DNA of 64,000 bases from Diplonema papillatum (Eukaryota > Euglenozoa > Diplonemea > Diplonemida > Diplonemidae), in the NCBI GenBank assembly GCA_030068145.1, contig JAPJBO010000051.1:197501-261500 (forward strand), given 5' to 3'. The translations under genes and the position numbers were made by a program. Below are positions 38,378 to 41,355 of the stretch, one piece after another (within the stretch, counting starts at the first letter, position 1; each line of letters opens with the position of its first letter). The notes under the pieces were generated by a model that was given only the letters and a program-made list of their open reading frames with translations, had not been told where the DNA came from and did not search any database.

Positions 38378-38717
38378 GTAGTAGTAGTAGTAGTAGTAGT
38401 AGTAGTAGTAGTAGTAGTAGTAGTAGTAGTAGTAGTAGTAGTAGTAGTAGTAGTAGTAGTAGTAGTAGTAGTAGTAGTAGTAGTAGTAGTAGTAGTAGTA
38501 GTAGTAGTAGTAGTAGTAGTAGTAGTAGTAGTAGTAGTAGTAGTAGTAGTAGTAGTAGTAGTAGTAGTAGTAGTAGTAGTAGTAGTAGTAGTAGTAGTAG
38601 TAGTAGTAGTAGTAGTAGTAGTAGTAGTAGTAGTAGTAGTAGTAGTAGTAGTAGTAGTAGTAGTAGTAGTAGTAGTAGTAGTAGTAGTAGTAGTAGTAGT
38701 AGTAGTAGTAGTAGTAG
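38378..38717. repeat. (AGT)n microsatellite, about 113 units
   Basis: Uninterrupted AGT repeats run to the left boundary of the YR retrotransposon. The same triplet resumes on the other side of the element at 41354. Confidence 0.98.
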
Positions 38718-38937
38718 GAATTGGCAGCTAGCTTCTGGCCTCATCGCACTCGGTCTCGGCTTAGGTCTTCGGTCATTGTACTCAGGGTGGGCTTGGCTAC
38801 CTACGCCATCCGGAGTATTCATCATCGGAAAGGGGAGGAAAGAGAAGTCAGACAGAACCTTGATAACTTGCAACTAGCGAATGGGATAGAGTGTGCCTGT
38901 TGACCATGTCAATGGGCCAACCAGGCGAGATCACAAT
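38716..38937 (-). repeat. split direct repeat B2 of the YR element
   Basis: This 222-bp block (GGAATTGGCAGCTAGCTTCT to GGCGAGATCACAAT on the plus strand) appears identical to 39075-39296. Its outer end meets the AGT microsatellite directly. Confidence 0.92.
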
Positions 38938-38956
38938 GGGGGCAAGGGAGGGCGGG

Positions 38957-39076
38957 AAGAAGAAGAATTCAGTCTCAGAAGACCCACCTCAGCCCACCCG
39001 AAGTCTCCTGTTGTAGGCTCGGGTGGTGTGCTCATCCTGCCATGCGCTTTGCTCCAGTTCCTACCGTGTACTAAAG
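38957..39076 (-). repeat. split direct repeat A2 of the YR element
   Basis: This 120-bp block (AAGAAGAAGAATTCAGTCTC to CTACCGTGTACTAAAG on the plus strand) appears identical to 41236-41355. It abuts B1 with a one-to-two base overlap (AG). Confidence 0.92.
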
Positions 39077-39296
39077 GAATTGGCAGCTAGCTTCTGGCCT
39101 CATCGCACTCGGTCTCGGCTTAGGTCTTCGGTCATTGTACTCAGGGTGGGCTTGGCTACCTACGCCATCCGGAGTATTCATCATCGGAAAGGGGAGGAAA
39201 GAGAAGTCAGACAGAACCTTGATAACTTGCAACTAGCGAATGGGATAGAGTGTGCCTGTTGACCATGTCAATGGGCCAACCAGGCGAGATCACAAT
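39075..39296 (-). repeat. split direct repeat B1 of the YR element
   Basis: Identical to B2 by inspection. The stop codon of the RT-RNase H frame (TGA at 39290-39292) lies within its inner end. Confidence 0.92.
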
Positions 39297-40959
39297 CCAT
39301 CCACCACTCCGCCAGTGAAAAACGTCCTCACCGCTTGTGTCACCGCCGCCACGGACTGAGGAGTGAAGGCCGTCAAGGGAACCCGGGATGGGAGATCAGC
39401 GGGATTTCCTGCACTCCTCACCCATCGAACCGATATAGCGCAGTTCAAGGACTGCACCCGCTTCAAACCTGCAACCACCGCGTTGTTCAACACGGAACTC
39501 CGCAGACACGCACCTTTCCGCGCGACTCCTTTGACGGTTGTGTTGTCGACGACAACGTCAACCCGACCCCCAGACACAGTATCGGGCAAGCACAAAAGAA
39601 CACGCTCGAAAGCCAGCGCCTCGAGCTCGTTTATATGAAAGAGGGACTCCTCGCGGGACCACGCCGCACCAAGGATAGTCACCTCTGATGTGCGAGAGTC
39701 GACGAGGACGCCCCCCCAACCTTTTTTACTGGCATCTACAAAGGCCGTTATAGACGGCCTCGCCGCTCCGGTTGGAAGACTGCGAGGTTTCAAAACCGAA
39801 TCAATCCAGGTTTGCAGAGACGCCCGCACGCACGGGGAAATCGACACGTAATCGGACGGCAGCTTGGCTCCTCGATTCAACGCGTTGGTGACACGTCGGA
39901 GAAACTTCAGCGAAAACCAGAAGGACCCGGGGAAAATCCCCGCGATGGCCGATGCGTGCAGCAGGCGCCCTCCCAAGGTTTCCAACTCATGCGCCGGAAC
40001 GGTCGCAGCACCCAGCACGTAGCGCGTTTCCAACAGCTTCCGCTTGAGCTTGCGGCACAGCGCCACCTGGTGTGACACATGATCCCACCGGACTCCGATG
40101 AACTCGTACTGCCGTGAGGCAGTTTGCGAATCCGTCTCTTTCCAAGTTAGGCCGCAGTCGGAGGCGGTCCGATCCAAACGTCGAGTGGCTTCGACGACGG
40201 ACTTCTTTGTTCCGGCGTATCTGATGTTGTCGACCCACACATCGACAACCACAGAGCGCTCCGCAAACTCGGGCATCACGTAGTCCGGATGCCCGGCCGA
40301 AACGGCGGCAAGAGTGTGCATTATCTCCGGGGCACACGAATGCCCCATGGGGAGACGTGTCAACTCCCACCATGCGCCCTCCGCGTCGCAGAACCGGAAG
40401 AGCCGAGTTGCGCCTGGAGGAATGGCCACTGCGTAGAACCCCGTTCTGAAGTCCCGCGTCGTGCCACACTCCTCATGTACCGCGGTAAGGTACTTGGACA
40501 CATGCCCCAATGGCACGTGCGCTTCGTAACCCTGGGCGTCGGCCACACGATTCCCATCGAACGACCACAAAATGAATCGCTGGCGCAACGCCCCGTCCTT
40601 CTCCTCGATGACGGTGAAGGGCACGTTTACCAGAGGGCCCGGACCAGGCGCTCGTCTGGCGATACCGTGTTTGGACAGCTCGCGCGCATGTCTAGGATCG
40701 AGTCGGGAAGGCGATCCCATTGACGGTAGAAGGTCGCCGGTTTCCGGTGAAAACGTCAGGCGCCACGTATCGTCAAAACGCTTGCGCGCCGCCGGTGTCA
40801 TCCGATTCTTCAACTTCTCCACGTCCATACAGTCGATGGATGCTGCGTGAAGGGGAGCCTCCTTCTCTTCCTTCGTCCGAGGGAGCCGTGTCGAGCCGCC
40901 TCGTCTGGTGATCGAATGCCCGCCCGACTTCTCGAAGACATCCGACCGCAAGAAGCTGG
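39290..40959 (-). CDS. reverse transcriptase-RNase H of the YR retrotransposon
   Basis: The conserved part begins near LKNRMTPAARKRFDDTW. The RT palm shows FILWSFDGNRVADAQGYEAH, motif A in TRDFRTGFYAVAI, motif B LPMGHSCAPEIMH, motif C VVDVWVDNIRYAG and the GLTWKE segment. Motif C is VDN in place of the usual YxDD. RNase H follows with all four acidic positions: ITAFVDASKKGW, HINELEALAF, VVVDNTTVK and SAGNPADLPSR. No premature stop is present over about 550 residues, so the copy is young or selected. The upstream continuation in this frame overlaps the recombinase and is probably not translated; the true start is unclear, with MDVEKLKN near 40830 a candidate. Confidence 0.85.
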
Positions 40960-41229
40960 TCACAGAAAGATCGTGACCTTCCCCGTCTCCAGGGCGCGTG
41001 CCATGTCGACGAGGCCACCGCCGTACCGAATCGTCATGTCGGATAGCGTCCCCGGGCCGCCCTTCTCCTCGTGCTTGCCCAGGCGATCGACGAGGTGCGG
41101 CGGGATCGGTTCCCCGCGTGCCATCAGCGCGAACAGCTGCGTCATCGCCCCTCTCTTGATCGAGTGAGCGGAGAACCCGCTCATCGTCGGAGTTCGGGCC
41201 CAGGTAGCATCCAGGGTCGTTGCCGTCAT
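40960..41229 (-). pseudogene. tyrosine recombinase, C-terminal fragment
   Basis: The frame reads MSGFSAHSIKRGAMTQLFAL, then VDRLGKHEEKGGPGTLSDMT and IRYGGGLVDMARALETGK before a stop at 40960. HSIKRG followed by LGKHE and a Tyr within MTIRYGG matches the C-terminal catalytic boxes of tyrosine recombinases (H-x-x-R/K, LGH, Y nucleophile). Lys occupies the position expected for Arg in HxxR, with Arg next to it. The first catalytic Arg box should lie upstream but is cut off by the A1 repeat at 41236. Its position before the RT, in the same orientation, recalls VIPER and TATE elements of trypanosomatids. Confidence 0.7.
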
Positions 41230-41235
41230 CGCCGA

Positions 41236-41355
41236 AAGAAGAAGAATTCAGTCTCAGAAGACCCACCTCAGCCCACCCGAAGTCTCCTGTTGTAGGCTCG
41301 GGTGGTGTGCTCATCCTGCCATGCGCTTTGCTCCAGTTCCTACCGTGTACTAAAG
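41236..41355 (-). repeat. split direct repeat A1 of the YR element
   Basis: 120 bp, identical to A2. The outer end (plus strand GTACTAAAG|TAGTAG) meets the GTA microsatellite. Confidence 0.92.

Follow-up and report, generated by a model that had tools for sequence, protein, structure and literature searches.

A probable VIPER/TATE-type tyrosine recombinase retrotransposon residing in (ACT)n microsatellites of the diplonemid Diplonema papillatum

The window, namely the whole stretch of 64,000 nucleotides analysed here, harbors on its minus strand a retroelement with split direct repeats, which is bordered on both sides by the same perfect trinucleotide array. This arrangement raises the questions of what kind of retroelement lies at this locus and whether the array served as its target. 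The element in the window very probably represents a young, multi-copy tyrosine recombinase (YR) retrotransposon of the VIPER/TATE type, about 4.6 kb in full length and targeted to (ACT)n via a 2-nt CT core; the copy itself has suffered an internal deletion.

Host and layout of the window copy

The TLC-domain gene at 36630-37280 of the window is 100% identical to DIPPA_17706 of Diplonema papillatum. The host is thus a diplonemid and not a kinetoplastid, which is the proviso under which the initial annotation had expected a new branch of the group. Diplonemids and kinetoplastids are sister groups. A brown alga, suspected at first from GC content and microsatellites, was discarded as host. The assembly behind all genome-wide counts comprises 271 Mb in 2910 contigs. 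Repeats make up 52% of the assembly according to the genome paper, which mentions "more than 60 ORFs" resembling DNA transposon proteins "including TATE", MULE and Helitron, and whose main text contains none of the terms VIPER, DIRS, Ngaro and tyrosine recombinase (PMC10161547). In the window, tandem repeat accounts for about 22% (TRF), including the repetitive open frames 8878-13341 and 52355-55621. A non-LTR-type reverse transcriptase (RT) ORF of 1057 aa with a YADD motif and a His/Cys-rich C-terminal part (RVT_1, 1.7e-18) is located at 60139-63312 (-), and a 312-aa ORF at 462-1400 (+) gave a weak, below-cut-off match (0.0014) to the Tc5-type transposase DNA-binding domain.

The features of the window copy, in the order of the element's own strand, are as follows.

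41354..41514, no strand: 5' flanking microsatellite, perfect (AGT)n / (ACT)n, putative target array (TRF, 53.7 copies, 100%)
41236..41354, minus: split direct repeat A1, matching A2 exactly over 119 nt
40960..41234, minus: tyrosine-recombinase-like ORF, C-terminal remnant (..AHSIKRGA..LGKH..IRY..), matching the end of the 407-aa ORF in two longer copies (L031 and L033)
39290..40945, minus: RT/RNase H, 551 aa, open frame with WVDN as motif C and the acidic RNase H residues D, E, D and D present
39075..39296, minus: split direct repeat B1, with the RT stop codon within its first bases
38957..39075, minus: split direct repeat A2; B1/A2 junction TTCC|TTTAG
38716..38937, minus: split direct repeat B2, 222/222 identical to B1
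38377..38717, no strand: 3' flanking microsatellite, perfect (AGT)n / (ACT)n, putative target array (TRF, 113.7 copies, 100%)

These coordinates bear out the minus-strand order that had been proposed at the outset, that is, A1, a C-terminal recombinase remnant, RT/RNase H (RT/RH), B1, A2 and B2. The apparent identity of both repeat pairs is likewise real, with A1 (start 41354) and A2 (start 39075) agreeing over their first 119 nt and B1 and B2 over 222 nt; both pairs are far beyond chance, because the next direct repeat of the region reaches only 18 nt at 83%. The RNase H acidic set (D404, E442, D467 and D517) and the RT/RH frame without a stop are also present as annotated. The description as a "complete" split-repeat element, in contrast, holds for the repeats and not for the element, which has lost its Gag together with roughly three quarters of the recombinase reading frame: the recombinase part of the 95-aa frame at 40960-41247 corresponds to the C-terminus of the 407-aa ORF in the longer copies. 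Both edges adjoin perfect (AGT)n on the plus strand (38377-38717 and 41354-41514, TRF), a feature absent from the initial annotation. No inverted repeat joins the two ends of the window copy, and these ends, A1 and B2, are unrelated to each other and therefore form no LTR pair.

Full-length copies and their proteins

In the host genome, at least 79 RT matches were scored among 2704 candidates, and 36 RT copies are at least 98% identical over all 551 aa. A1 lies within 3.5 kb in 33 of these 36, the other three being RT copies without A1 among exact matches (C760, C679 and C632). Between A1 and RT lie 2370-2393 nt in 21 of the 33, which are of full length, and fewer (160 to 2268 nt) in the remaining 12, among them the window copy with 409 nt. 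Deletion junctions were read in eight of the 12 shorter copies (L002, L010, L013, L019, L020, L021, L029 and L032); the deletion starts at the TTCTTCTTC tract closing A1 in seven of the eight, while A1 itself is altered in L020. The RT of 30 copies (L001-L030) is nucleotide-identical to that of the window; these are the best matches, so that the identity is partly a matter of selection, and it points to a recent amplification, or homogenisation. Solo A-B units of 360 nt occur as well: when 21 left ends were compared with the 131 B ends listed out of 216, seven proved to have one at a distance of exactly 360 nt. The right end of L012 consists of a B followed by three A-B units, and those of L002, L008 and L030 consist of a single B, as recombination between B repeats would give.

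Longer copies with a gag and a whole recombinase, which the initial annotation had named as a check, were found in L031 and L033. They span 4.6 kb from A1 to B2 and carry, on one strand, a Gag-like ORF, a YR-like ORF and RT/RH, enclosed by A1 and B1A2B2; L032 has the same ORFs with a shortened Gag. The fetched copies have split repeats and no LTRs in their place, which would have counted against the assignment, and their B1 begins at the RT/RH stop. The YR ORF of L031 (3763-4986) overlaps the RT/RH open frame (3651-6656), and in L031 and L033 RT/RH is read in a different frame from the YR ORF. The Gag-like ORF of these two copies (336-338 aa) stops at TGA-CTG. This hexamer lies at 3760-3765 in L031, 3748-3753 in L032 and 3760-3765 in L033, and the recombinase ORF continues in frame behind it without an early Met. 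Stop-codon read-through at the TGA between the Gag-like and recombinase ORFs is a possible, conjectural route to the recombinase, and a frameshift into RT might be guessed at likewise. The differences at codon positions 1/2/3 amount to 16/13/63 for the Gag frame of L031 versus L033 and to 16/18/50 for the YR frame of L031 versus L032, a bias which indicates that both frames are under constraint.

The 407-aa ORF is accepted as a putative tyrosine recombinase on account of its residues, its position, the split repeats and the insertion behaviour. Six YR ORFs, drawn from three families, share R251, K280, H340, H371 and Y387 without exception, with the position of the second catalytic Arg occupied by K and then R (HSIKR), and the YRs of two sister families are 40-56% identical to that of the window family. 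No significant match to the YR was returned by Pfam (best 0.28, UNC-50), NCBIfam (best 0.043, GSU2086) or a profile search of the PDB (best 1.5), nor by hhalign and hmmsearch against six bacterial or phage recombinases, where hhalign, working with a small effective number of sequences (Neff 1.7), gave a probability of 0.2 on a scale of 0-100. The PHROGs search linked three of the six YR members to an integrase family (best 0.16) and two of the six to an unnamed family (0.062). A YR signature regex recognised four of the six YR ORFs and none of 300 shuffles, but it is of little weight because only two of six known recombinases matched it.

With Pfam alone, RT/RH gave a weak RNase H match (0.0018, below the cut-off). 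A profile of 39 sequences, i.e., the window protein and 38 relatives, brought three solved chains below 1e-3. The best of them, an "Enzymatic polyprotein" (6.7e-9), which we take to be that of a caulimovirus, covers RT and RNase H with motifs A, B and C in register and places WVDN opposite YxDD; Ty3 Gag-Pol (1.3e-4) and a "Reverse transcriptase/ribonuclease H" (2.2e-4) follow, both over the RNase H part. The VDN of motif C had been flagged in place of YxDD. It is indeed present in the window copy as WVDN, but it is no oddity of a single copy: among 85 aligned sequences (84 relatives and the query), the first Asp is invariant, and the next residue is N in 77, G in three and D in five (P0078, P0081 and P0086-P0088, all divergent members). 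VDN therefore characterises the majority of the clade as sampled and is not damage. A second RT profile, built from eight divergent members and scored against 7999 candidates, reached the unnamed P0089 (3.6e-25) and the Daphnia "RT/ribonuclease h/methyltransferase" P0090 (4.2e-15), both DIRS-like by our own reading, and, at a lower level, two integrase-bearing gypsy-like polyproteins (1.4e-8 and 6.2e-5). The solved-structure matches of caulimovirus type and Ty3 would speak against a DIRS affinity of the RT. No relative was found in viral contigs, and no VIPER, TATE, Ngaro, PAT or Kangaroo RT was recognised among the proteins retrieved. The designation of one Diplonema relative of the RT (P0061), TcC31.12, resembles those of Trypanosoma cruzi genes and is presumably a hint of kinship with kinetoplastids.

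Insertion into (ACT)n arrays and alternative readings

At the left end, the A1 of all 33 RT copies is preceded by ACT repeats, perfect over 12 nt in 31 and with a defect in two, and fetched copies with a visible A1 show (CTA)nC before A1 and (ACT)n after the terminal B2. At the right end, ACT repeats follow in 29 of the 30 loci fetched (L001-L030), 26 of which have an exact end; in L004, L009 and L027 the last 2-6 nt of B2 are missing (BLAST), yet ACT follows, and in L026 the contig edge is reached inside a further A repeat. Genome-wide, the first 22 nt of A have 148 exact matches, a count that misses diverged copies, which divide into 50 B/A junctions and 98 left ends. Four perfect units (TACTACTACTAC) precede 62 of these 98, and 92 of the 98 end in TAC; another phase or an AGT array occurs at none. 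Outside perfect arrays lie 36 of the 98, with TAC before 30, and at the 33 distinct sites of this kind T, A and C occupy positions -3 to -1 in 31, 28 and 32 cases, several insertions being preceded by a single TAC.

Uniformity is lower among the right ends than among the left ones. For the terminal 20-mer of B, 216 genomic occurrences were counted (31 + 185), and the 131 listed comprise 30 B/A junctions, 43 ends running into about four ACT units, nine running into 2-3 units and 49 others. Right arrays measure from 25 to at least 923 nt, and those of L003, L005, L010 and L016 run, directly or past a small defect, into another A repeat, so that the arrays gather element clusters. In the 271 Mb there are 778 starts of perfect (ACT)10-or-longer arrays (246, 227 and 305 by phase; reversed-pattern controls 23, 38 and 56), and 82 of the 100 listed among the 246 CTA-phase starts follow C, judged by eye, as a right end would give. 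The examined copies lie in ACT runs in one register, presumably owing to recognition of the ACT repeat by the recombinase.

If the element behaves like other YR elements with split repeats, its RNA would be reverse transcribed and the split repeats would allow the cDNA to circularise, giving a B/A junction that would read TTC-CT-TTAG (TTCCTTTAG). The YR may then recombine this circle with genomic TA-CT-AC through the shared 2-nt core CT, and a single crossover there would yield exactly TA-CT-TTAG on the left and TTC-CT-AC on the right. The junctions present in the genome are TA-CT-TTAG and TTC-CT-AC, and the left ends lying in arrays share one phase and one strand. (ACT)n would be the preferred target because TACTAC is present in every unit. 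The junctions fit a shared 2-nt core, while a short target duplication would be invisible inside a repeat array. Deleted copies and solo 360-nt A-B units keep both ends and could move in trans by proteins made elsewhere.

The same distribution might be produced by insertion anywhere with a short core, the copies in (ACT)n surviving since arrays are harmless, i.e., by safe-haven selection with no targeting. Such an account would accommodate the 36 left ends (of 98) that fall outside perfect arrays, the 49 of 131 listed B ends running into neither ACT nor A2, the listed flanks of two sister families, mostly unlike the arrays known here (by eye), and the tandem-repeat share of the window; selection, however, leaves the use of one strand and one phase out of six unexplained, TAC precedes 30 of the 36 left ends outside perfect arrays against a chance of about 1 in 64 each, and only 778 perfect (ACT)10-or-longer starts exist in 271 Mb, which makes it unlikely. 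That the (ACT)n tracts belong to the element or are made by it, e.g., by slippage at its ends, is highly improbable: the RT-bearing copies with visible ends do carry (ACT)n and most listed CTA-phase starts follow C, but ACT is absent from the internal B1/A2 junction, the right arrays vary widely in length, a single TAC stands at several insertions, and 532 array starts fall in the other two phases, a share of them being arrays left of elements.

The third reading concerns the class of the element, which could be a divergent Ngaro or DIRS type or an LTR element with a rearranged end. In Ngaro, RT precedes YR, and DIRS1-like elements possess inverted terminal repeats with an internal complementary region. 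The Diplonema element, in contrast, has its recombinase-like ORF before RT, its B1 starts at the RT/RH stop, and its window copy lacks an end-joining inverted repeat; as for LTR features, no DDE integrase domain was detected in the five proteins scanned, and the same repeat does not stand at both ends, given that A1 and B2 are unrelated. The A1-[ORFs]-B1A2B2 repeats, which are common to Ngaro and PAT-like elements by their descriptions (PMC8547959, PMC6681497), together with the divergent-member profile reaching two DIRS-like proteins and the solved-structure matches of caulimovirus type and Ty3, would favor this third reading, which is nevertheless very unlikely.

Related elements and significance

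The preferred VIPER/TATE assignment matches published descriptions in ORF order, overlapping YR/RT frames, A1...B1A2B2 repeats and solo A-B units. The recombinase-then-RT order, likened to VIPER/TATE from the start, persists in the longer copies and agrees with the available accounts (PMC6681497, PMC12278014). The TATE of trypanosomatids is described as sharing with the Diplonema element a Gag-like ORF, YR and RT/RH, the overlap of the YR and RT/RH frames and A1...B1A2B2 (PMC6681497, PMC12278014), and as occurring in tandem clusters at one relative position in telomeric hexamer repeats, GGG^TTA (PMC6681497, citing earlier work), which parallels the clusters of the Diplonema element in ACT arrays. 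It differs in that the Diplonema target is (ACT)n and the host a diplonemid; WVDN is the motif C of the Diplonema element, TATE being known here by description and not by sequence. VIPER of Trypanosoma cruzi agrees in ORF order and repeats, and its short derivative SIRE (A2+B2) resembles the 360-nt solo units, a likeness again by description and not by sequence, whereas the available description mentions no tandem-repeat target for VIPER/SIRE (PMC6681497). The tyrosine recombinases of crustacean nimaviruses form a YR family tied to insertion into a simple telomere repeat, (TAACC)n, but they belong to large DNA viruses rather than retroelements and are reported as not close to those of DIRS (PMC10871703). 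Among the matches listed from the open-licence literature (titles and abstract openings), no microsatellite-specific YR retrotransposon was found, and none characterised in diplonemids.

In a sister family with 68% RT identity, all five checkable copies, i.e., RT copies on contigs covered by the 100 listed of 246 CTA-phase starts, have their ends less than 600 nt from the start of an (ACT)10 array (588, 588, 588, 481 and 229). Families with 70% and 55% RT identity have B-A-B ends too, and their 12 fetched loci, in which the pairs L041/L042 and L043/L045 each share one downstream sequence, all lie in arrays of 41-bp, 102-bp, 19-bp or 6-bp units. The 16-18 nt flanks of these two families (43 places; first 100 of 631) are mostly unlike those array units by eye, though arrays of other kinds could escape notice in flanks of this length, and those with G at the last place were omitted by the patterns. 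The 41-bp and 102-bp minisatellites were each entered by two different YR families (L034-L039 and L040-L045), the 41-bp array in both orientations. On account of these flanks and of the shared downstream sequences, targeting of tandem repeats was dropped as a general rule of the clade; the sites of the 70% and 55% families are varied and not confined to one array type. Only tentatively, homing into tandem repeats may be regarded as an old trait of a euglenozoan YR-retrotransposon clade with an x-D-N RT and an H-x-x-K-R second YR box, in which the targets (telomeric for TATE; (ACT)n for the window family and its 68% sister) would switch with the recombinase core and each insertion would leave array on both sides, so that arrays could gather clusters.

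These findings would extend the VIPER/TATE type, as described from kinetoplastids in the accounts available (PMC6681497, PMC12278014), to their diplonemid relatives, for which the genome paper, in the available portion of its text, notes only TATE-like ORFs in Diplonema (PMC10161547). For TATE the known target is telomeric, and an ordinary microsatellite now joins it. Recent insertions and simple junctions make the element a tractable system for two questions, namely how site choice by a eukaryotic tyrosine recombinase works when the core measures 2 nt, and what makes simple repeats a place where elements settle.
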